Source of the DNA: a virus
Virus record (IMG/VR): IMGVR_UViG_3300047409_000016
Coordinates: 1-24,307 of that record
DNA: 24,307 bases
Direction: 5' to 3' (one strand)
The notes beneath the pieces were generated by a model. It did not search any database. It saw nothing but the letters and a program-made list of their open reading frames with translations, and was not told where the DNA came from. Shown piece after piece: positions 1 to 12,067 of this stretch. The position numbers and the translations under genes are program-made. Position 1 is the stretch's first letter, and each line of letters begins with the position of its first letter.

Positions 1-2021
1 ATGAAATTGTTAGGACCTGCCATCGTTATGTCGCCACCAAGCCACGCGACAGATGTGGCCGTCGAGGCTCCCGGCGCTCTATTGACGCCGAGACGAGAGA
101 CCTGCGCTGCACCGCTGAACGTCGCCGTCGTGCCGATGAGTGGCGCGGTAACGCTAACGGTAGTGCCGCTAAGTGTCAGCGGTTGGAATGAACCGACGCC
201 GGTGGTGTCAACACCATCAATCGTCGTGCCGGTGGCGTTCGTCGTAATACGAACGCCCTTGGTTGTACCGGAAAACAGGCCAAGCAGGTCGCCGTCCGCG
301 CCGGACGACCTGAACTTCGCTGCGCTCGGTGTCCCGCCCACACCAACCGCACCGCTGAACGTCGCCGTCGTGCCGGTGAGCGCGCCGGTCAGGGTGACGG
401 CACCCGTCGAGCGAGTGATCGCAAGCGGCTGGCCGAGAAATGAGCCTGTATCGTCAAAGGCATTGATGCCTAGGTTGCTGCCTGCGCTACTACCGCCCTC
501 GGCGGTCGCAGTCGCTACGATGTTCCAGCGAGCAAGTCCCGCCGTCATAAGTGTTACGCCGCGTGCGGTGCCTGCAGCACCAGTGATATTCAGCGGACCC
601 GTGAGCGTACCACCCGCGAGCGGCAAGTAAGACCCAGCCATCGTCGGTGTCGCGGGCACCCACTGCGAGGAATTGCCGTCGTTGTAGTAGACCATCAGCG
701 TGCCCAGCACGCTGTTCCACCACATCGCCCCGGCGGTCGGTGATCCCGGTGGCGTGTCGCTGATGGTGAGCGAGGCACCGCCGCCGCCGCCCATCACTGT
801 CCACGTCGTCGCACCGTCAGTGTTGACGTAGGGGCCGCCGCCATCGCTGCGCAGATAGATCGAGCCGCGTGCCATCGCTGCGGTCGGCGCACCGGAGCCA
901 AAAATCATGCCGAAGTTGGTGGTGCTGCTGAACAGGTAACCCGCACCGGCCGTGCCGCCTGCCGGTATCGCGGTGGCCGACATGACCTTCTCTGCGCCGC
1001 TGAACGTCGCCGTCGTGCCGGTGAGCGCGCCCGCCAGCGTCACCGCCTTGGTATTGGAAATCCGCATCGCCTCGGCAGGTGCTGCCGAGCCATCAGGCGA
1101 CGTGGCGAAGATAAGTCGCCCCGGCATGTCGTTTAGGCCGGGCGCACCATCGACCTCAGCGCGGATATAGGCACCCTCGACGAACTTCACGCCGTCGCTG
1201 GCGTTGAAGGACAGCGTTCCCATCATGTCGGTATTGATGGCGATGGCCTGCGTTCCGGCTGTGCTGCCCTGAGATTTGGAGAAATTGAGAAGCGGCCCCG
1301 TGGCGACGCCACCGCCAACATAACGTTGAATTGAAAGGCTGGCCTGACCAGCCGTTGCGATCTGCGCGAGCGGGGTTTGGGTCGATCCCGCATAAGCCTG
1401 AAACGGTACCGCCGTGCCGTAGCCGACCAGTTCGCCGCCGCTAAACGTCGCCGCCGTGCCGATCAGCGGGCCGGTGAGCGTGCCACCCGTCAGCGGCAGA
1501 TAAGTGGTGCCTGCGGTCGCCGTCGTCAGGTAACCCTGATCCTTGACGAACTTGGTCGTTGCCAACGTCTGGTTGTTGGCACCGACCGGCACCACCGCTA
1601 TCCGCGTCGGATCGCCTTGAAGGCCCACATCCAGCTTGATCGTCGGATTGGGATAGGTCCCGTCTAAATCGCCGCCTGCCGAGCCGCCCGGTGAGGCACC
1701 GCCTGTTCGCCAGAAAGCATTATTGCCGTCGCTCGTCAGCGTCGTGCCTGCGGCACCGACCGGCAACCGGGTATTGCCGGTCGGTCCGTAATAATAAAGA
1801 TCGCCCTGCGTCGTCAGCGGCGAATTGTAGGGTCCCTGAAGATCGCCCGTGAAGACGATATCGCCGTTGACGATCAGGCCGCCTTCGATGGTCGGGTTGA
1901 TGTTGAAAACGAGCGCACCGTAGCCGGTCGTCGGATAGGGCGAGCCCTTCTGATCGGCAATGCGGACCGGTGTGCCCCCGCCCGAGACGAGGGTGACGTA
2001 CTGAATCGGGTTGCTGCTCAT
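1..2021 (-). CDS. Phage tail fibre protein, partial (C-terminus beyond left edge)
   Basis: The frame opens with ATG at 2021-2019, directly after the TAA of the preceding gene (TAAATG). I checked it codon by codon and found no stop down to base 3, so at least 673 residues are present and the C-terminus lies outside the window. The protein is rich in Gly, Thr, Ala and Ser. It carries fibre-type repeats: LPLTGGTLTGPL near 1465-1505, a close variant LPLAGGTLTGPL near 593-630, and four copies of a segment like LTGTTATFSGA. Such repeats are typical of trimeric beta-structured phage fibre shafts, which usually end in a host-binding tip. Here the tip or any chaperone/peptidase domain would be off the window. 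It is the last visible gene of the ejection/fibre block and probably translated by coupling to the gene before it. The fibre assignment is strong; the receptor is unknown. Confidence 0.8.
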   Translation of the reverse strand, partial: MSSNPIQYVTLVSGGGTPVRIADQKGSPYPTTGYGALVFNINPTIEGGLIVNGDIVFTGDLQGPYNSPLTTQGDLYYYGPTGNTRLPVGAAGTTLTSDGNNAFWRTGGASPGGSAGGDLDGTYPNPTIKLDVGLQGDPTRIAVVPVGANNQTLATTKFVKDQGYLTTATAGTTYLPLTGGTLTGPLIGTAATFSGGELVGYGTAVPFQAYAGSTQTPLAQIATAGQASLSIQRYVGGGVATGPLLNFSKSQGSTAGTQAIAINTDMMGTLSFNASDGVKFVEGAYIRAEVDGAPGLNDMPGRLIFATSPDGSAAPAEAMRISNTKAVTLAGALTGTTATFSGAEKVMSATAIPAGGTAGAGYLFSSTTNFGMIFGSGAPTAAMARGSIYLRSDGGGPYVNTDGATTWTVMGGGGGASLTISDTPPGSPTAGAMWWNSVLGTLMVYYNDGNSSQWVPATPTMAGSYLPLAGGTLTGPLNITGAAGTARGVTLMTAGLARWNIVATATAEGGSSAGSNLGINAFDDTGSFLGQPLAITRSTGAVTLTGALTGTTATFSGAVGVGGTPSAAKFRSSGADGDLLGLFSGTTKGVRITTNATGTTIDGVDTTGVGSFQPLTLSGTTVSVTAPLIGTTATFSGAAQVSRLGVNRAPGASTATSVAWLGGDITMAGPNNF
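111..1470 (-). repeat. Four dispersed DNA/protein repeats in the fibre gene
   Basis: A near-identical segment of about 30 bases occurs at about 111-140, 351-380, 996-1031 and 1437-1470. On the plus strand it contains the core gaacgtcgccgtcgtgccg; the last copy is diverged. On the coding strand it encodes LTGTTATFSGA or close variants. Spacing is irregular (about 240, 645 and 440 bases), so these are fibre shaft modules rather than a tandem array. High DNA identity among the first three copies suggests recent duplication or gene conversion. Confidence 0.75.
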
Positions 2022-2978
2022 TTAGCTGCCCACAAGGCTGCGCAAATAACGAATGCGCCCGCCTTCAGCTTTTTGCTGGGGTTGAGTCTGTGGTTGAGCC
2101 TCTGCCGGTTTGCCGCCCGCCACCGTCCGGAAAAGATCGATGGTGAAAGCCGGGCTCAGGCCGCCGCCCTTCTCCATCTTGGCCATCGCCAGCATCATCT
2201 TGGCCGCCGCGTCGGGATTGGACAGGACCGTGGCCAAGGGCGTGTTTGGATCGATCCCGGCGCTCTGGGCGACGTGGCTGATGTAAGCCGTGGTGTTGTT
2301 TTCAGACGGTGGAGCCCATTTGGCTATCGCCCCGCCCAAGGTCATGTCCGGGCTGGCGGACGCGTAGCTCGCCAGATTGTGGTACATCGCCGCCGCACCA
2401 GCTTCCGGTGTGTCGAAGGTTTCAAAGCCGTTATGTGGCTGTCCCTTGCCCGCCCAGTTGATCCCAGACGTGCGCAGGTTGCCGACGTTGAAGTTGAAGC
2501 CTTCGTTGCCTGAAGCGCCCGATCCCGCTCCGGTGCCGCCATAGACCGCCTTGCCCTGTGCCTGCCCTTGTCCCTGCCCCCCGCTGGTGCTGGACGACGC
2601 TACCGCCGCCGCCATCTTCTGGCGTTCTTCGGCCATCGCCTGAAGCTGGGCATCGATGGCGCTCATGCGGTCGCCAAAGTCGTCCTTCTTCTTGTCTTCC
2701 TCCGGATTGATGGCCCCCGCGAGTCCCTTGGCGATGTTGCCAAGCTCATTGGACTCAGGCAGCACCTTGGGTATGTCCGGCGGCAGAGGCGCGTCCATGC
2801 GGGGCTGCGGCGGTGACTGAAGCATGGAAGACGGGGCCATCGGACGGGCTGCGGGGAACGCCACGGACTTGCCGAACGGCCCACCGGCAGGCCGCACGGC
2901 GGCGCGCATCGCCGCCACCGGAATACCCGCTTCCGTCGTCGGTGATTGGTCGAAAAAGTTGCCCCAGTCCTGTGGCAT
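2022..2978 (-). CDS. Virion protein with lytic (PRD1 P5-like / lysozyme-like) domain
   Basis: The product has 318 residues and starts with ATG at 2978-2976, immediately after the TAA of the upstream gene. The N-terminal half (about 1-150) is Pro/Ala/Gln/Gly-rich with a short helical stretch near 95-128, and looks disordered. Residues about 155-290 form a compact domain with an N-x-G-N-L-R motif, a W-A-P-P-x-E-N-N-T-x-A-Y motif and a G-I-D-P-N-x-P-L motif. I recall this pattern from phage and prophage proteins annotated as structural protein P5 or lysozyme-like virion proteins. The likely role is local opening of peptidoglycan during DNA entry. I cannot point to a proven catalytic residue. The last 25 residues carry the EGGRI form of the motif repeated in the neighbouring ejection proteins. 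Position among internal-virion genes supports a virion rather than lysis role. Confidence 0.6.
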   Translation of the reverse strand: MPQDWGNFFDQSPTTEAGIPVAAMRAAVRPAGGPFGKSVAFPAARPMAPSSMLQSPPQPRMDAPLPPDIPKVLPESNELGNIAKGLAGAINPEEDKKKDDFGDRMSAIDAQLQAMAEERQKMAAAVASSSTSGGQGQGQAQGKAVYGGTGAGSGASGNEGFNFNVGNLRTSGINWAGKGQPHNGFETFDTPEAGAAAMYHNLASYASASPDMTLGGAIAKWAPPSENNTTAYISHVAQSAGIDPNTPLATVLSNPDAAAKMMLAMAKMEKGGGLSPAFTIDLFRTVAGGKPAEAQPQTQPQQKAEGGRIRYLRSLVGS

Positions 2979-5900
2979 TTACTCGTCGCTCTGAGTTCGT
3001 GTGCGCCATGGATAAAGATAAGCCGCCGTAGGGGGCGCGAGACGCTTAGCGGTATTCCAGTCCGCCTCACGGCCCTGATACTGACTCAACAAACTGCGAA
3101 TTTGATCGACTCCCGATTCGTTGCCCGCCTTTCCCGATTGACCAAGAATCTTGGCTGCCTCGTTGGCAACTTCCCGGCGGCGTGGAACAGGATGGGTGAT
3201 CGTATCTATCCACTTGCGATATCCCGAAGGGGCGCTTGGGTTGACCGCAGAGCCTACGATGTTCGACAAGACGCTCGATCCCGAATCATCCATATTCTCA
3301 ATCGACTGCAATCGCTTGGCCGTCTTGCTGTTGCCGAGCGCAGAATTCATTAGCTTGTTCTGGTCCGAAAGCTGGCGAATCTGCTCCACTATGTGCGGCC
3401 ACTCGGCCTGTTTTCCGGGCGGCAACAACGCTTGGTATTTCTCCATCATATTGGGATTATTCATAACGTCAGCCCAATTGTGGGTGAATTTAGTGGCATC
3501 GCTGCCCAGCAACTTGGACTCCAAGGAACGCGCGCCGCCAATACGGAACAGGGATTTTTCAACGTCCGAATTATTTGGATCATTGAGGAAAGCATCAATG
3601 TCCTGCCGCCCCATGCCTTTATCCAACTCGTTCACGTTTTTGCCGAACACATCCTCACGTCCTTTACGCAAGGCTTCGATATGATTTGAAGTATCGCCGT
3701 ACTTCTCCATCGCTGCCTTGTATTCCGGATTAACGTCCATCATCGCCTTGTTCAAATCTGACTTGGCGTGCATGGCCGTCATGGTGTCGAACGTCGGGTC
3801 TTTCGTCCTTTTATCTAGCAGACGTTTGATGTCGTGCAGGAATTGCGTGTTGTAATTGAGATACTCGCCGTGTCGGTTCTGCAAGCCGGTATCGCGCGGC
3901 CCGCCGCGCGCGGCGGCGGCTGATTTTTCGGCCTGCTCGATGATATCCGGCGCAAGAATCTTGATCCGCTCCATCGCATCATCGATAGGGAGGCTCATGA
4001 TTCTCTGGTTATAGGCGGGCTGGAACATCGCTTCAGCATCGGTGCTCAACTTGTTGAGCAACTGCGCCTCGGTGCCCCGGAAATCCTTGGTGCCGAACGT
4101 CCGGCCAAACCAATCTTTGACTTGACCATACTGCGAAGCCGGTCCCTGCTGATCGAGCGGCAAGGTTGGATCATGCTGACGCTTGATGAGGTCCTTGCTC
4201 AGCCTGCCCGCTTCCTCGCCGGGCATCTGGACTGCTGCTTCCGTCATGCCCGGCAGCACGTCGGCCACCTTCACATCCTTGCCGCCCGGAAACTGCTGTA
4301 CTCCTTGGCTGGCCTGCCCTTGCTGGGCAACATCCATCGACCTTGTGCGCTTCAATTGAAGCGCCGCCTTCAATTCGTCGGCCGACATGTTGGCAAAATC
4401 AGGATGGGATGTGTCGATGTTCCCCGTGTATTTATTGCGTATCGAGTCGAAAGCCGGATCGGCGTCATAGGCACTGACACGATCACTCGGCAATTCCTTG
4501 CGCAGCCACTTGGCGACACGATCATCCTTGCTGAAAAGATTGCGCAACATTTCGACGCTTTTAACGCCAGTCAATGCGCCCAAGCCCAGACCGCCACCAA
4601 TCCCGCCCATCATCGTGGCGTCGTGCATACGCTCGTCAAATCCGCCTTCCCCGGCACCGAAGCCTGCAACTCCTCCCACACCGGCACCCTTGCCCAGTGC
4701 ACTCAGAATACTGAGCGCCTTCGGTGAATTGGCCAGCCATGACCCACCGGGCAGTTTGGTGGCAAGTTGCCCGGCCTTGGCGAGAGCCGAAGAAACAGCA
4801 GGAATGTTTTTCGCTGCCGTGCCTGCCGCTCCTAATGCACCCGTAAACGGCAGGGTCAGCAATGCGCCGCCAAGCTGCGCCGCCGTGCTGGCCGCTTCGC
4901 CGTGCTTTGCAGTGAAATCCTTGACGCCTTGGCGCTCGTCATTCAATGCCGTGTCGTAGTCTGCCCCGCCTAGTACCTTCGGCAAAACCGAGCGCACACC
5001 GGCCACCGCTTCGTCGGCAAACGGCAGCACGCCCTGTCCCACCGTGCGCCAGTAATTCTTGTCCGTGGTGTCCACACCCGCTGCGGCAGCGGGTGACTGA
5101 AAAAACGTAAGGCCACCAACGCCATACTCCGGAACTTGTCCGCCGCCCTTAAACTGTCCGCCCTCGGCCAAGCCATCGCCGTGCCGCCTGCGCATCCATT
5201 CCTGCCATCCCATACGATTTGGATTGTCTACGAGCTTGCCCTTTTCGTTGATGACGTAAGCCATGCCTTCCTTCGATTTGGCATAGTCCTTCCACGCATC
5301 GTTGGCCCCGGCGGATGTCTTGTAATAATTGAAATACTGATTGATGAATTTAGATTTGGCGATCTGGTCCTCAAGAATCCGGCGGCGCTGGGCAATCAAC
5401 TCCAGATTCACATCGGCCCTGTGCGCCATGCTGGGATTGGCTTTGTTAAACAACTGGCGCTCGTAATCCGAAATAGCGCCTTGCCCCTGCGGCACCGAGT
5501 GAATCGTGTTGCCGGAAAAAATACTGTCCAACTGTTGAGCCGCATTGGTTCTGTCAGGAAAAATACTATTGGGAAGTCCGTATTGCGGCCCCGACACTTC
5601 CGGATGCGCTTTCAGAATCGCTTCCGCCTGATCCAACCCTTTAAGCTCTTGCGCCGCCTTGTCGGCGTCGGCGGTAAACAGCTTGTTTTCCTTATCGAAG
5701 GCGGCCTTCTCCGCCGGATACATTTTTAATTTCTCGGATGGATTTGCCACTGTCTCGTAAGACGACGGTGCCGACAGAGGCGGCAAGCCAAGGCTCTTGG
5801 CCTTTTCCACATCCTGCGGGGTGCTACCGGGCACGTTAAAGCCACCCTTGGCCGTGTTTGGATTGATATTCGACCGCATTCCTTCGGAGAATCGCTTGAT

Positions 5901-6653
5901 CGATTCTTCCGGAACCTTGAGCGAGCGGGCAACCTGTTCATAGCGCCTGATAAGCTCGGCTTCACGTTCCTGCGGCGTCGTGAAGTAATCCTTGCCCAGC
6001 GCGTCGACCTGTTTCTGGGCCGCCTGCATGGCGTTGTAGTTGGCCTTTTCCTCCAACGTCGCCGCCTGCTGTGCGTCCTTGGCACCCGCTTTGGCGGTCT
6101 GGCCTTCGACCTTGATCAGGCCCGATTCGATAGCCCGCATGCTGGCTTCGTCGCCGTTCTGCATGGCCCGCAGATAGGCCAGCTTGTCCTGCAACGGGGC
6201 ATTTTCGACACCGGCCCGCCGCATCGCCAGTTGCGCCAGCTTGTACTGATAGTCGTCGGCTTCGCTGCGCTGCTTGTCGATTTCCGGCACCATTGCCTTG
6301 ATGCCAGCACCAAGCTGCGTGCCGAAGTTGCCGGGGCTGCTCATCATGCCCGCGCCCAACGCCATCAATCCCGTGTTGGAACGTCCTTCGCGGTTTTTCT
6401 TGAGCGATGCCGTGGTGTCGTCGAGCAGCTTGCTCATCGTGTCGACGTTCATCTGCTGCTTGGAGAAGACGTTGTCGACTTCGCGCGTCCGGGCATCGAA
6501 GTCAGCACGGTGCCGGGCAAGGAAACCCATGCCCATGTCGCGCGCCCCTTCCGGGTTGGTCATCGGCGCTTCGACCACGGGCGCGGGCGCGGCCGGGACG
6601 TTGGCCGCTACGGACGGACTGCCGAAGGGTGAGGGATCGTCGCCGTCAGCCAT
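2979..6653 (-). CDS. Large internal-virion / DNA-ejection-type protein
   Basis: The product has 1224 residues and starts with ATG at 6653-6651, abutting the TAG of the preceding gene. The N-terminus (1-30) is Pro/Ala-rich. Residues about 40-480 are predominantly charged and helical. A Gly-rich copy of the shared motif (EGGQFKGGGQVPEYGVGG) lies near 494-512. Residues about 586-695 contain three hydrophobic Gly/Ala-rich segments that could insert into a membrane, preceded by a Y-D-x-A-L-x-x-E-R element I recall from other phage virion proteins. The C-terminal 500 residues are again helical and charged. Size, domain style and position between another giant virion protein and a lytic virion protein resemble internal core or ejection proteins of podoviruses (compare T7 gp15/gp16 or P22 gp16/gp20), though I see no direct sequence match. 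Role inferred; no enzymatic motif recognised. Confidence 0.6.
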   Translation of the reverse strand: MADGDDPSPFGSPSVAANVPAAPAPVVEAPMTNPEGARDMGMGFLARHRADFDARTREVDNVFSKQQMNVDTMSKLLDDTTASLKKNREGRSNTGLMALGAGMMSSPGNFGTQLGAGIKAMVPEIDKQRSEADDYQYKLAQLAMRRAGVENAPLQDKLAYLRAMQNGDEASMRAIESGLIKVEGQTAKAGAKDAQQAATLEEKANYNAMQAAQKQVDALGKDYFTTPQEREAELIRRYEQVARSLKVPEESIKRFSEGMRSNINPNTAKGGFNVPGSTPQDVEKAKSLGLPPLSAPSSYETVANPSEKLKMYPAEKAAFDKENKLFTADADKAAQELKGLDQAEAILKAHPEVSGPQYGLPNSIFPDRTNAAQQLDSIFSGNTIHSVPQGQGAISDYERQLFNKANPSMAHRADVNLELIAQRRRILEDQIAKSKFINQYFNYYKTSAGANDAWKDYAKSKEGMAYVINEKGKLVDNPNRMGWQEWMRRRHGDGLAEGGQFKGGGQVPEYGVGGLTFFQSPAAAAGVDTTDKNYWRTVGQGVLPFADEAVAGVRSVLPKVLGGADYDTALNDERQGVKDFTAKHGEAASTAAQLGGALLTLPFTGALGAAGTAAKNIPAVSSALAKAGQLATKLPGGSWLANSPKALSILSALGKGAGVGGVAGFGAGEGGFDERMHDATMMGGIGGGLGLGALTGVKSVEMLRNLFSKDDRVAKWLRKELPSDRVSAYDADPAFDSIRNKYTGNIDTSHPDFANMSADELKAALQLKRTRSMDVAQQGQASQGVQQFPGGKDVKVADVLPGMTEAAVQMPGEEAGRLSKDLIKRQHDPTLPLDQQGPASQYGQVKDWFGRTFGTKDFRGTEAQLLNKLSTDAEAMFQPAYNQRIMSLPIDDAMERIKILAPDIIEQAEKSAAAARGGPRDTGLQNRHGEYLNYNTQFLHDIKRLLDKRTKDPTFDTMTAMHAKSDLNKAMMDVNPEYKAAMEKYGDTSNHIEALRKGREDVFGKNVNELDKGMGRQDIDAFLNDPNNSDVEKSLFRIGGARSLESKLLGSDATKFTHNWADVMNNPNMMEKYQALLPPGKQAEWPHIVEQIRQLSDQNKLMNSALGNSKTAKRLQSIENMDDSGSSVLSNIVGSAVNPSAPSGYRKWIDTITHPVPRRREVANEAAKILGQSGKAGNESGVDQIRSLLSQYQGREADWNTAKRLAPPTAAYLYPWRTRTQSDE

Positions 6654-9600
6654 CTATCGACTCCACGCTCTGCGCCATTCCAGCCCTTGCCGGGCGGCGT
6701 CCCATGCCTGCTGGGCGGCGCGCAATTCCTGTACGGTCTGGCGCATCGTCATGCCGGTAGCACCTGCCGCCGGGGACATGCTGCCCAGTGCCGCGAATGG
6801 CGGGTCAAGGGCGTCGATGTAATCGCCCCGCCCGATACGGTCCACCATCTGGCCGACCGGCTTGGCGATGTCGCCATAGACCTGTTCGCCCCAACGGCGC
6901 AGGCCGCCCTTGCTGCGCTCGTACTCCGATTGGGCGTCCATGCGCGCCTGCGCTTCCGGACTCATGTACTGGGGCGCTTGCGGCCTGCGCGCCTGATCGT
7001 CGTCAAATTGAGCCTGTGCCGCCTGCCGCCGGTAGCCCGCCGCGTTGCTGCTGGCATCGAGGAACGGACTGGAACCTTCGCGCGCCCACGAATCATGGGC
7101 TGGAGCCGTACCCGCTTGATACATGTAGCCCGGCAGGCGTTGGCCCCCTTCGTCGTAGCCCGGCAACTGGCCACCACGGGCCAAGAACGGGATGATCTTG
7201 GCGACACCACCGAGCAGCCCGCCAAGGCCACCCATCATGCCGCCCACGCCGCCCATCGTGCTGCCTGCGCTGCCACCACCTCCGCCACCGCCTGATGCGG
7301 AGGGCAGGCCACCAAGCGGACCAAAGCCGGTGTATTGAGCCACGCTGGGATTGACGACTCCGGTATTCAACCCGGTGCCGAACGGTCCCGTAGGGGCTTG
7401 ATCGTCCAGCGCGCTAAGGCCACCGCTGGCGAAATGCGGTATCTGGCCGCCGCGTGCCGCGAAGAGGCCCGTCCCGCCGCCAAAGCTGCTCATATCGAGA
7501 TCGCCGGTCGTGTATGCGCCACCGCCGCCGGTACCGACCGGCGTGATACCCGAGACGCCAAGCTCTGCGTCGGGCGTGCCGGGAGTGGGGCCGTCGCTGC
7601 CGCCAAAGATGCTCTTGCCCGCCTTTATGAGATCGGCAAGGGATTTTCCCGCTGATGCGATGTCGCCGCCGCTGGTGCTGCCACCGCCACCACCGGAGCC
7701 ACCGCCACCCCCGCTGGTCGCCCCGGCCATCGGGCCGAAAGCTCCGAAGTGCGCCACGCTGGTGCCGGGTGCGCCCATCCTGAGCCCGGTGCCGAACGGA
7801 CCGGTCGAAGCCTTCTCGTCCAAGGCGGCACGGTCCGCCGCAGCAACAGGGGCCGCTGTGGCCGCCATCATGCCGGGTGCCAGCAACTCGGCCAAGGTCA
7901 CGGACGAGCCTGTCGCGTAGCCGGGGACGCTGCCGCCACGGGCAAAGAAGCTGCCCGCCATGTCGCCCCACGATCCGGCGTCGGTCACGGCACCGCCAGC
8001 GTCGGACGCCGTGCTGGCGACACCCGCCGCCCCGCTGCCGCCACCCCCGCCAAACAGGCTGCCAAGGCCGCCTAGGCCACCCAGACCGGGGATATTGAAG
8101 CCCTTGCCGGGCTCGCCTTCGCCGGTCGGCTGTCCGGCCGCGCCCATGGTGAAGGTATTGGCGGCATCGTTGCCAATCTGATCGGTGTGGCCTTCAATCA
8201 AATCATCCGCCGCTTGACCGGCAAATCGGCCAATCATCGGTCCCAAGACCGGAATGGGGATCAGCATGCCGAGCGCACTTCCGGCCATCCCGGCAAGATC
8301 GTGGAAGCCGCCACCGCCATAACCGGGTACGCCACCGCCATGGCGATAGGTGCCGCCACCGTCACCTGCATCGGCCGCGCCGCCACTGGTGCCCGTTGCT
8401 GCGCTGCCCCCCTCGCCCGCAGAAGCCGAGCCGCCGACCCCTCCGGTGCCGCTGACGCCGCCGGTCGAATCGCCGCCCGAGCCCGTGGCACCGTTGGCAC
8501 TGGCGCTGAACGGGCTGGCCAGCACGGCCGGGGGCGGCACCGGAGCGACCATGGTGGACGGCAGGATCGGGCTCAGGTCACTGGCTGAACCCAACTTGGG
8601 AAAAACCGAAGCCTTCGTGCCCGGTATCGCACCGCCTTCGGCATAATTGCCGTGCCGACTCTTGCCACTAAGCCAAGCGAACAACCGGTCGAAGAAATTG
8701 CCCTGTGGGGCAGGCTCAGGCACAGGGTCGTATCCCCACGCCCGCCATCCGCTGCGTGGCTCATCCTCTGCCGGGCTGGGTGCAACGGCTGCCCTTCGAC
8801 TGGACGGTGCAGCACCCCTGTTCACCACGGCACGGACTGCTGCCGGTGGCAGCGGTGTCTCGCCGCGCGGCATGGTGGGCATATCGTACTGCGGGTACCA
8901 TTCCGGATGCTGCTGATGGAGGCGGTTGAGAGAATTTAGATCGCGCGGATCAGGCTCTGGCAACGGTGCCCACTGGCCCGGCACAAAGCTGCCACCACCC
9001 TCGGACCGGGGATTGCCCCGCTCAAACCACTGCATGGGATTGACGGGAGACACTTCGTGGCCACCCGAATCGTCGCCATAGTCCGTGGGCGGCGGAAGAT
9101 TGCCGCTGAAGCGCGGCGTCGGATTGCCCCGGATTTCGAGCCCGCCGTAGGCGTAGCCCGGCACCGAACCGCCACGCGCCAGACGCAGCTTGGTCAGTTC
9201 GCCGGTCGTCGCCTTGTGCATGTTGCGCTCATGCTGGTGGACGCCGCGCTCGACCATGGCGCGGTCCTGCGCCTCATCGCCGGTAAAAGGGCTGGCGTTG
9301 AACACACCACCTCGCGCCAGCCGTCGATTTGCGGGATGCGGCAAGGGCTGCGGTGGCTGCGGCATAGGATTAAGTGCAGCCGCCGTGGGGGGTGCAGGAG
9401 GGGGCATACCCGGCATGCCGGTCGGTTGCATGCCGCCCATGCCACCCATCGGCCCCATCGGGCTAGGCGGCGGGGGTGGCTTGCGCATGGCATTGCGCTT
9501 GCGCACGCCCGTGACGGTCGGAACGTAGCCGCCCGTGGCGTAGTAGTTGATCTGGCCGCCGCGCGCCGATTTCTGCGTGCCGTCCGGATTCTTGTTGTTG

Positions 9601-10868
9601 TCGCCGCCAATCGCCCCGGCCAGCGCCGTGCCCGCACCGACAACCTGCCCGGCAATCGAGCCTTGCGGTGCGCTCTGGCTGGTGGTGCTGCTGCCGCCGG
9701 AATTGTTGGTGTTGAGGAAGTTGCTGCTGGTCGGAAGCTGCCAGCCCTGCCCAAGGCTCTGCTGATACTGCAAGCCTTGCAGCGGCATCGACTTCTGCTG
9801 TTGTTCCAGTTGCTGCTGCTGATTGCCCACGCTCAGCAAGGCATTGGCATCGGTGTAACCCGCGTTCTGGGTCGCCGTGCCGAGCCCCTGCTGCGCGGTG
9901 CCCGCCGCCACGTTGGCAGCCGTGCCAAGCTGGCCGATATTGGCGGCGGTCTGGCCCAACCCGGCCTGCGTCTGGATGCCCGCATTGGCCAATTGCCCCG
10001 CCGTCGCGCCCAGTCCGGCCTGCCGCTGTAGATCGGTCTGGGCGGCCGTCATGGCGCTCTGGTAGCCGGTGTTGGCCATGCCAGCGAGCGACTGATCGAG
10101 CGCCTGCTGCTGCTGGTAGACCGCGTTGCCCATCACGTCACCGTGGCGCTCGCGGCCGAACTGCGCGGCATTGCCGCCGCTGAAGGTGTCGTTGATGCGC
10201 TCCATCGGCCCGCCCGGCGCGCTGAACGCCGTGTTGCTGGCCTGCCCGACCGCTGCCATGGCGTTCTGCTGGTACGGGCTCATGTAGTTGCCGACCTGCG
10301 TATTGGCGGTCTGGTCGGCCTGCTGGGCGAACGGATTGAATGCTTCGCTGCCAGTCTGCATCTGACCGGCCTGCTGGACGTAGGGCATCGAACTGTTGAC
10401 AAGGTTGCCAGCGGTGCTGGACGCATTGTTGAACGATCCAGCCGCCTGATTGTAGAACGGCTGGAAGCTGCCCTGATTGTTGCGAACGTCCTGAAAAGCG
10501 TTCTGCTGATCCTGATTGAAACCCGCGATGTACTTGTTGGGATCGCTGAAATCGAGCCCGGCCGCCGTCCCGAGCGTCTGGTCACGCAGTTGATTGTACT
10601 GCGGATCGGCAATGTTGTTGTTGGTCGCGCCCGTGCTTTGCACCGACGAATTCGTCTGTTGCGTCGTCGTGCCGGGCTGGCCGCCAAACAGGCCGCCAAA
10701 GTCGAAACGCGGGACCTTGCCGCCACGCTTCAGCGTCGTGACCGCGCGCACCCGGCCCTTGCCGTGGCCGAACGGGCTGAGCGAAGTGAGCCTGCCGGGC
10801 TTGGTGGAACCGAACGGTCCGCCGGAAGGTCCCACAGCAGCGGGAGTGAGCAGGGGCGTCTTGGCCAT
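6654..10868 (-). CDS. Giant Gly/Gln-rich ejection-module protein with repeated GGxxPGY motifs
   Basis: The product has 1404 residues. Its ATG at 10868-10866 overlaps the preceding TGA by one base (TGATG). Residues about 1-60 are basic and include KRGGKVPRF. Residues about 70-400 are Gln/Asn/Ala-rich with repeated helical stretches resembling internal-virion proteins. About 460-515 is Pro/Met-rich. The remaining 900 residues are Gly/Ser/Pro-rich linkers separating short motif copies of the type ARGGSVPGYAYGG, nine in all. A segment containing TGPFGTGL is duplicated near the C-terminal third. No enzymatic domain is recognisable. The composition suggests a flexible, extended protein. Together with its neighbours it probably forms part of an ejected or tail-associated complex. 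A low-complexity fibre-like or scaffold-like role remains possible. The frame is unbroken despite the many repeats. Confidence 0.6.
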   Translation of the reverse strand: MAKTPLLTPAAVGPSGGPFGSTKPGRLTSLSPFGHGKGRVRAVTTLKRGGKVPRFDFGGLFGGQPGTTTQQTNSSVQSTGATNNNIADPQYNQLRDQTLGTAAGLDFSDPNKYIAGFNQDQQNAFQDVRNNQGSFQPFYNQAAGSFNNASSTAGNLVNSSMPYVQQAGQMQTGSEAFNPFAQQADQTANTQVGNYMSPYQQNAMAAVGQASNTAFSAPGGPMERINDTFSGGNAAQFGRERHGDVMGNAVYQQQQALDQSLAGMANTGYQSAMTAAQTDLQRQAGLGATAGQLANAGIQTQAGLGQTAANIGQLGTAANVAAGTAQQGLGTATQNAGYTDANALLSVGNQQQQLEQQQKSMPLQGLQYQQSLGQGWQLPTSSNFLNTNNSGGSSTTSQSAPQGSIAGQVVGAGTALAGAIGGDNNKNPDGTQKSARGGQINYYATGGYVPTVTGVRKRNAMRKPPPPPSPMGPMGGMGGMQPTGMPGMPPPAPPTAAALNPMPQPPQPLPHPANRRLARGGVFNASPFTGDEAQDRAMVERGVHQHERNMHKATTGELTKLRLARGGSVPGYAYGGLEIRGNPTPRFSGNLPPPTDYGDDSGGHEVSPVNPMQWFERGNPRSEGGGSFVPGQWAPLPEPDPRDLNSLNRLHQQHPEWYPQYDMPTMPRGETPLPPAAVRAVVNRGAAPSSRRAAVAPSPAEDEPRSGWRAWGYDPVPEPAPQGNFFDRLFAWLSGKSRHGNYAEGGAIPGTKASVFPKLGSASDLSPILPSTMVAPVPPPAVLASPFSASANGATGSGGDSTGGVSGTGGVGGSASAGEGGSAATGTSGGAADAGDGGGTYRHGGGVPGYGGGGFHDLAGMAGSALGMLIPIPVLGPMIGRFAGQAADDLIEGHTDQIGNDAANTFTMGAAGQPTGEGEPGKGFNIPGLGGLGGLGSLFGGGGGSGAAGVASTASDAGGAVTDAGSWGDMAGSFFARGGSVPGYATGSSVTLAELLAPGMMAATAAPVAAADRAALDEKASTGPFGTGLRMGAPGTSVAHFGAFGPMAGATSGGGGGSGGGGGSTSGGDIASAGKSLADLIKAGKSIFGGSDGPTPGTPDAELGVSGITPVGTGGGGAYTTGDLDMSSFGGGTGLFAARGGQIPHFASGGLSALDDQAPTGPFGTGLNTGVVNPSVAQYTGFGPLGGLPSASGGGGGGGSAGSTMGGVGGMMGGLGGLLGGVAKIIPFLARGGQLPGYDEGGQRLPGYMYQAGTAPAHDSWAREGSSPFLDASSNAAGYRRQAAQAQFDDDQARRPQAPQYMSPEAQARMDAQSEYERSKGGLRRWGEQVYGDIAKPVGQMVDRIGRGDYIDALDPPFAALGSMSPAAGATGMTMRQTVQELRAAQQAWDAARQGLEWRRAWSR
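7110..10730 (-). repeat. Nine dispersed copies of a GGx(I/V)PGYxxGG coding motif
   Basis: Copies, by approximate plus-strand position: 10693-10730 (KRGGKVPRFDFGG), 9522-9566 (ARGGQINYYATGG), 9283-9320 (LARGGVFNAS), 9139-9182 (LARGGSVPGYAYGG), 8600-8646 (AEGGAIPGTKAS), 8306-8350 (RHGGGVPGYGGGG), 7909-7951 (ARGGSVPGYATG), 7425-7467 (ARGGQIPHFASGG) and 7110-7194 (ARGGQLPGYDEGG). The consensus is a small or hydrophobic residue, often Arg, then Gly-Gly, two variable residues, Pro-Gly-Tyr/Phe, and a second Gly pair. Related forms occur in the adjacent genes near 11180-11260, 5119-5172 and 2045-2075. Spacing is uneven, so this is not a tandem repeat of fixed period. Confidence 0.8.
7370..7815 (-). 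repeat. Duplicated TGPFGTGL module inside the 1404-residue protein
   Basis: Two segments at about 7700-7815 and 7275-7395 share the order L-D-x-x-A-x-TGPFGTGL, then a short variable part with S-V-A, a G-F/A-F-G-P element and a poly-Gly/Ser tail. Each is preceded by an ARGG motif copy, so the duplicated unit includes both. Divergence between the copies is substantial, which argues for an old duplication. Confidence 0.7.
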
Positions 10869-12067
10869 CAGCCCTTATCCTTTCCCCGGCGACGCAGGCC
10901 GTCGCCCATCGGGTTGCCGACAAGGTATTCCTGCGCCGACTTGGCCTTGGGCGAGAAGTTGCCCTTGGCCAGCGCCGCGCCTTTTTGCTTGCGCAGGTTG
11001 GCCCGCATCTCATCCATCTTGCGGGCACCGTGATCGGGATTGCCGTCGCCCAGAAGCGCCATACTCTCGGCATCCATGACGTATTCCTTGGGGCTGAGCT
11101 TGGCGTTCACGTCGTCTGCCCGGCCGCTCGAATCGCCTTGGTTGACGTAGTTCTGGCCGCCCGAATCGAAGGTATGACGGACCGCGCCTTGGCTGCCGTA
11201 AAGCTCCGGGTAACCTCCCCGCATCAAGCCAATCGGGCCGCCGTGGGCATGACCCGGCTGGCCCGAACCAAAGGGCGTGCCGTTACGCCAGCGAATGTAT
11301 CGGTCTACCAAACCACCGGGCGGCGGATCGGTTATGCCGAAGATGGAGCCTATGCCCTGACCAAGACCGCTCAGGGTGGGCTTGCGCAACTCACCCGGCA
11401 CGGGGGGCCTCGTCACAACCGGCTGGCCCGGTACAGGAGGCGCGTCTTGCGGCGGCAGCGGTCCCATGGCGAATTCAGGATTGTAGGGCAATTGAGGGCC
11501 GCCCCCACCATCGCCTCCCGTCATCGGCGGCGGCGGCCATTGGGAGGTTTGTCTGCGATCTTCCCCCGGCATCGCTCCCGGTCCCGGCTCGCCACCAATT
11601 TGCGTCAGCGGGATATAAGGCTGTGAAGGACCGCCCAGCGCGCTCTGCACGATCTTGTGGAGATCGGGCGCGCTGCTGATCTTGGTGACGGGCTTCGGTG
11701 CCGGGGCTGGCGGGCCATACGGGACGGGACCGAACGGGGTGGGGCTGGCCGCCACGTTCTTGTACCAAGCCTCGGCGGCTGGCCCCGTCTGATCGCCCCA
11801 AGGGTCTTTGTAGCTGCCATAGTTGATCGGATTTTCGCTGCCGCCCATGCGGGTCGGATCGCCAAATTGGCGGGCTATCCAGTCGATGGCCCGCGAACCG
11901 CCGGACGGGGCGTAGCTGTGGCCTGAGCCGAACAGGTTGCCTATCCAGTCCAGCGTCCGGTGCAGGGCGTCGGGATTGTAGGCGGACTGAAGCGTTTTAA
12001 GTTGGGCGTCGTGGTTCGCGTCACGAATAGCCGAACGCCGAGCATCTGCCTCGGATTGCGTGGTCAT
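10868..12067 (-). CDS. Ejection-module protein with conserved C-terminal GRADDVxAxLSPxEYVMDAES domain
   Basis: The product has 399 residues with ATG at 12067-12065 and is the first gene after the terminator and AT-rich leader. I see no good Shine-Dalgarno. Residues about 1-110 are mixed; about 115-250 are Pro/Gly-rich and probably disordered. The conserved part is the C-terminal third, containing GRADDVNAKLSPKEYVMDAE at about 318-337, followed by a basic helix. I recall this module in many podovirus-like genomes, where it sits in internal-virion or tail-associated proteins, but I know no assigned function. A degenerate Gly-Gly motif (HAHGGPIGLMRGG) links it to the next genes. Its TGA overlaps the start of the 1404-residue gene (TGATG), so the two are probably co-translated and act together. 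Confidence 0.6.
   Translation of the reverse strand: MTTQSEADARRSAIRDANHDAQLKTLQSAYNPDALHRTLDWIGNLFGSGHSYAPSGGSRAIDWIARQFGDPTRMGGSENPINYGSYKDPWGDQTGPAAEAWYKNVAASPTPFGPVPYGPPAPAPKPVTKISSAPDLHKIVQSALGGPSQPYIPLTQIGGEPGPGAMPGEDRRQTSQWPPPPMTGGDGGGGPQLPYNPEFAMGPLPPQDAPPVPGQPVVTRPPVPGELRKPTLSGLGQGIGSIFGITDPPPGGLVDRYIRWRNGTPFGSGQPGHAHGGPIGLMRGGYPELYGSQGAVRHTFDSGGQNYVNQGDSSGRADDVNAKLSPKEYVMDAESMALLGDGNPDHGARKMDEMRANLRKQKGAALAKGNFSPKAKSAQEYLVGNPMGDGLRRRGKDKG

Follow-up and report, generated by a model that had tools for sequence, protein, structure and literature searches.

A glycine-rich motif of the form [RE]GGxxPG[YF]xxGG, carried by neighboring proteins of a phage ejection block, is an order-specific sequence element that occurs broadly in phage DNA and mainly in tape measure proteins. 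It was described in a 24.3-kb virus record (the window, by which we mean the whole stretch of DNA analyzed, itself a fragment), where four adjacent genes, here called A to D, lie on the minus strand and are preceded by a nozzle-like gene. A preliminary description had regarded the motif as particular to these four genes and to their coupling, and this was not supported by the wider comparison. The explanation that we favor, at about even chances, is that the motif is an order-specific element of a disordered, glycine-rich tether that stands beside an anchor module in A and has been amplified in B.

The ejection block and its motif copies

The four genes are tightly packed, A and B sharing one base, B abutting C and C abutting D (Table 1). 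The block has the look of a short-tailed phage: a nozzle-type protein of 528 aa matches a PHROG virion structural family, SU10_adaptor is found by Pfam only below the cut-off, no tail tube gene was recognized within the 24-kb window, itself a fragment, and synteny and homology connect the block to related short-tailed ejection blocks. As a putative set of ejected proteins that includes a peptidoglycan-degrading domain, it resembles gp14, gp15 and gp16 of T7 (PMC8954989), but that review describes neither the glycine motif nor the hook module discussed below, and A to C are without visible sequence homology to T7. Protein A as a whole has no PHROG or Pfam family match, protein C as a scan query found no relatives, and C and most of B gave no tblastn match in phage records. 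Glycine makes up 18% of B, whose extension (window positions 6654-9350) uses one block, TGPFGTGL...PSVA...FGP, twice (around residues 1023 and 1160). The domain of D matches PHROG 873 (E 2e-27) and Gp29 of PDB 9vvp (E 5e-14). Beyond D, window positions 3 to 2021 hold, on the minus strand, an open-ended, Gly/Thr-rich ORF of 673 aa that is tail-fibre-like and repeats blocks of the LTGALTGTTATFSGA type.

Table 1. Proteins, motif copies and C-terminal module in the window
Feature	Residues	Positions	Strand	Remarks
Protein A, 399 aa		10868..12067	minus	helical N-terminus, long middle predicted to be disordered, tape-measure-type module at C-terminus; homologous to gp66c of Caulobacter phage RW
Motif in A, HGGPIGLMRGG, degenerate	275-285	11213..11245	minus	edge of conserved C-terminal block; relative has EGGNVPGFMRGG there
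Hook-like module of A (...DSSGRADDVNAKLSPKEYVMDAESMALLGDG...)	about 305-384	10916..11155	minus	common to tape measure proteins
Protein B, 1404 aa		6654..10868	minus	conserved domain about 43-505, then Gly/Pro-rich extension of about 900 residues, absent in relative
B copy RGGKVPRFDFGG	48	10692..10727	minus	kept in relative as KGGKIPGYFLGG
B copy RGGQINYYATGG	436	9528..9563	minus
B doubtful copy RGGVFNASPFTG	519	9279..9314	minus	below 5/8
B strict copy RGGSVPGYAYGG	565	9141..9176	minus
B degenerate copy EGGAIPGTKASV	744	8604..8639	minus
B copy HGGGVPGYGGGG	843	8307..8342	minus	copy and flank resemble relative's protein A
B copy RGGSVPGYATGS	977	7905..7940	minus
B copy RGGQIPHFASGG	1139	7419..7454	minus
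B strict copy RGGQLPGYDEGG	1231	7143..7178	minus
Protein C, 1224 aa		2979..6653	minus	two-protein fusion; relative has separate genes (522 and 731 aa)
Motif in C, EGGQFKGGGQVPEYGVGG	497-514	5112..5165	minus	at fusion junction
Protein D, 318 aa		2022..2978	minus	endolysin/transglycosylase-type domain, residues 162-278
EGGRIRY in D	305-311	2046..2066	minus	not above chance, not conserved

The strings that had been quoted for A (HGGPIGLMRGG), C (EGGQFKGGGQVPEYGVGG) and D (EGGRIRY) are all present at their places, but they are not of equal standing. In full, the motif occurs only twice in B; seven copies in B retain at least six of the eight fixed positions and six retain at least seven, while 500 shuffles of B within 60-residue blocks gave an expectation of 0.2 and a maximum of 2. 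The count of nine copies given for B is thus reached only if the degenerate RGGVFNASPFTG and EGGAIPGTKASV are included. The copy in C retains six of the eight positions, a value reached in 11 of the 500 shuffles and so above chance, and one form in A is credible as well; D, on the other hand, has no match at five or more of the eight positions, and EGGRIRY does not rise above chance. As the string is also absent from the protein at the position of D in the closest relative, we rejected D as a member of the set: EGGRIRY probably falls outside the motif family, and what D brings to the block is, judging from its sequence matches, probably the endolysin/transglycosylase-type domain and not the glycine motif.

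Chance and low complexity are ruled out as the source of the motif by the shuffles and by reversed controls, the latter giving, within B, six matches in the forward order and none in the reverse. At sites where the B copies have the same residue, the third codon base differs in 48% of pairs, compared with 57% for random same-residue codons of B; such divergence indicates that the peptide has been kept and that the DNA was not recently copied. A recent tandem duplication as the origin of the copies is ruled out by this codon evidence together with the absence of blastp self-matches.

Distribution in viral and bacterial DNA

A degenerate DNA scan for GGx[VIM]PG[YF]AxGG recovered at least 120 stretches from 2.9 million viral contigs, whereas the codon-reversed pattern, and likewise a longer reversed variant, gave none in the same contigs. 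The corresponding scan of bacterial and archaeal DNA covered 257 billion bases and returned 109 stretches. Exact matches to a DNA pattern translate into the motif by construction, and hence we asked whether the frame of the motif is the longest open frame at its locus: this is so at 73 of the 80 viral loci among the matches listed, against 23 of 78 loci in bacterial genomes, and many of the latter 23 look, by eye, like tape measure or prophage genes. Equal frequency in unrelated proteins, which the preliminary description had named as the outcome that would speak against the motif, is not what these counts give.

The same asymmetry bears on another account of the motif, a flexible glycine-rich spacer whose exact sequence is irrelevant. 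Such a spacer would suit the glycine content of B and the predicted disorder of the region in A, but its order should then matter little, and the reversed form is absent or rare, both in the viral contigs and in B and also at the loci of A homologues, which hold 26 forward motifs and one reversed. Order specificity thus argues against a mere spacer, and we consider it unlikely.

Among 56 nonredundant viral carriers, 23 of the 25 PHROG families matched most are annotated as tail length tape measure protein, and the Pfam matches of the carriers include PhageMin_Tail, Tape_meas_lam_C, TMP_2 and TMP_3. There are also carriers outside recognizable tape measure proteins, and nine of ten hand-picked likely exceptions have no PHROG match. 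Fifteen of the 80 listed viral loci carry homologues of the nozzle or capsid genes of the window or of gp63, gp65 or gp68 of phage RW, and six further loci of the 80 have a match to the C-terminal module only. That its carriers are mainly tape measure proteins speaks against a role confined to the four genes; judged by the sequences that carry it, the motif is a general one of tape measure proteins and, in short-tailed phages, of proteins of the ejection type. Common as it is in phage DNA, we found no description of it, and no name for it, in the open-access literature searched. At three loci (L073, L076 and L034), the strict motif stands at the extreme C-terminus (e.g., GGQVPGFATGGVANLFRKRK) together with a conserved basic tail.

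Conservation among relatives

The closest relative found, IMG/VR contig 3300024254_000008 (G001; L050/L321), was recovered by the motif scan itself. It resembles the window in the nozzle (67% identical), the major capsid protein (83% identical), the C-terminal block of A (66%), B (41%) and the two halves of C (35-40%), but its B has 643 residues instead of 1404, its C is encoded as two genes, and the protein at the position of D has a different C-terminus. The motif takes homologous positions in the two. At the beginning of the conserved block, HGGPIGLMRGGYPELY in A of the window is matched by the canonical EGGNVPGFMRGGYPELY in A of the relative, which adds a second copy, HGGSIPGYAEGG; B of the relative keeps the N-terminal copy (KGGKIPGYFLGGLFGG vs. 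RGGKVPRFDFGGLFGG in the window) and has one further copy, DGGYVGDYADGG. The last 900 residues of B in the window, which hold five of its seven good copies, have no counterpart in the relative. In C, the fusion junction coincides with the motif site, and the first of the two proteins of the relative ends in SRAKGGAIKLGSEYD. One copy in B, that at residue 843, and its flank match A of the relative at 58% over 24 aa (E 0.005), a sequence likeness hinting that motif segments have been exchanged between genes.

Farther out, a similar order of nozzle, A, B, C-type and lytic protein is found in the Caulobacter phages RW, GB2A, RLK and KcrB and in phage DSL-LC04. The conserved domain of B is detectably related in this group, the C-terminus of A is 51% identical over 78 residues to RW gp66c, and the major capsid protein of RW stands at 52%; unlike the window, however, RW gp65c (333 aa) is without the extension of B and without its motif copies, and gp66c has only MARGGYAVKGPGTGRSDSI. 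The motif is enriched in the ejection proteins of related phages: a loosened form is found 12 times in A homologues, where 3.2 are expected, and nine times in downstream ejection proteins, where 2.9 are expected, while upstream genes are near expectation (5 vs. 4.6). In the close relative, the copy of A and the N-terminal copy of B are kept, but more distantly the pattern is patchy: the loosened motif is found in 10 of the 34 homologues of A and in 7 of the 82 proteins downstream. Of the roughly 23 B homologues that are more distant, none has it, the copies in B being limited to the window and the close relative.

Two further observations concern the proteins of such blocks. The lytic-type protein at the block end appears to differ between close relatives (window 2022-2978 vs. 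L321:10537-11349), suggesting from the sequences an exchange of the lytic domain at this place. In MW202545, the ejection-block proteins (L002:3833-5071 and 5075-6994) are extremely cysteine-rich, with runs such as CCCSCCCSCC, in part at places where glycine stands in relatives.

Conservation is also where the main rival to the tether reading can be weighed. In this alternative, the motif would be a short linear motif for docking, its copies in A, B and C binding each other or one shared partner, which might be the nozzle, adaptor, portal or a chaperone. The motif has the features of a short linear motif, being order-specific and not compositional, placed in predicted disorder and recurrent in several proteins; it sits at the edges of conserved domains in three neighboring proteins, and its residues are kept between copies while the codons differ. 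Most of its carriers, however, are tape measure proteins from phages whose partner proteins differ, and homologous ejection blocks conserve it patchily, which leaves docking a possible but rather doubtful explanation.

The C-terminal module of protein A and a possible tether

The tether reading draws on what accompanies the motif. In the C-terminal region of tape measure proteins, GGx[VI]PG[YF]AxGG is often followed by SDxIxAxLSxGE[YF]V, and the latter element also ends protein A, in a module (GRADDVNAKLSPKEYVMDAESMALLGDG) of the form GPGTxxSDDIxAxLSxGEYVxDA; in GB2A, the equivalent of RW gp66c carries the annotation of tail length tape measure protein. In the window, by contrast, the phage is apparently short-tailed, A is only 399 aa in length, and several genes carry the motif, with an amplified set in B. 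When 20 tape measure segments are aligned, DxVxAxLxxGEFV comes after the motif, and a GE[YF]V-type or GExGPE element stands no more than 120 residues downstream of the motif in 28 of 72 nonredundant carriers; the other 44 have no recognizable GE element within that distance, some because the available sequence ends. The module of A was aligned with three more phages and found at 78 more viral loci, 29 nonredundant proteins of which were inspected. B and C have the motif without the module, and with most carriers lacking the GE element, motif and hook are separable.

Profiles of the module segment match the tape measure protein gp16 of mycobacteriophage Douge (8zdo, two copies) at E 4e-23 and 1e-10, and they match gp46 of phage JBD30 (8rk3) weakly, at residues 1022-1056 (E 0.027), which is the start of a proposed hook at 1022-1066. 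All appear to share a sequence of the GPGTGTSDSI type, but the two known proteins belong to siphophages, where the proposed hook would sit in a baseplate and not in a short tail, and the module is without a solved structure: for Douge, only the last 42 residues (1658-1699) were built (PDB 8zdo/8zdq), and the module is not among them (PMC13033339). For JBD30, the authors predict an unstructured chain at 930-1021 followed by the hook, with a pair of helices and a short hairpin, and they speculate that the hook anchors the protein in the baseplate once the C-terminal domain has been expelled (PMC11445458). An anchor role for the module of A, resting on this published prediction and on a weak sequence match, is itself a prediction with about even odds.

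Tape measure proteins also bring in proteolysis, and the motif could be a processing site of ejection proteins. Those of T5 and lambda undergo cleavage close to the C-terminus (PMC10038345), and for JBD30 a cut at 1066, just past the hook, has been suggested (PMC11445458). That cut, however, would lie downstream of the module and not at the glycine motif, and B would need up to nine cuts; processing strikes us as highly improbable.

The structure predictions are compatible with a tether, although, with a mean pLDDT of 54 for A and 56 for tape measure segments, the models are too poor for claims about folds. In the model of A, helices span residues 2-46, confidence is low over 48-327, motif included, and it rises to 84-90 for the module helices; the region of the hook-like module has helices at 333-339 and 344-367, predicted with good confidence, and no strands. 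In the model of a tape measure segment, pLDDT stays under 50 over the motif and is about 78 at the GEYV element that follows. A Foldseek comparison with viral models returned only nameless phage proteins at low TM-scores. Of the segments of A to D, one, in B, passes the hydropathy cut (about 858-876), and it follows a motif copy; as the carriers are expected to enter the envelope, this could be taken to speak for contact with the membrane or the peptidoglycan as DNA enters the cell. But the motif has no hydrophobic character of its own, the segment in B is the only one to pass the cut, and the domain of D is a more plausible source of peptidoglycan activity, so that we give such contact very little probability.

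If the tether reading is correct, A would be a tape-measure-like anchor protein of the short tail. Its N-terminal part would leave the particle, the stretch with the motif would act as a tether, thin and flexible, and the module at the C-terminus would remain in the channel of the nozzle or adaptor. In B and C, the tether element would occur without the module: in B at the N-terminal margin of the conserved domain and as an expanded array in the extension, in C in the C-terminal tail of one fusion partner. There, the tethers may act as flexible, weakly adhesive linkers, such that the ejected proteins stay thread-like and associated with each other. A more far-reaching alternative is that GGx[VI]PG[YF]AxGG is a tag, read by a conserved partner during assembly or ejection across tailed phages, long- and short-tailed, and multiplied here in one protein to gather the ejection complex; this, too, we regard as unlikely.

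Tape measure proteins and the ejection proteins of podoviruses are usually treated apart. A common, order-specific motif of a putative tether and the C-terminal module of A suggest that the two kinds of protein share parts, and the tether reading predicts that a protein of a short-tailed phage would be anchored in the nozzle, as has been proposed for the tape measure proteins of siphophages in the baseplate.
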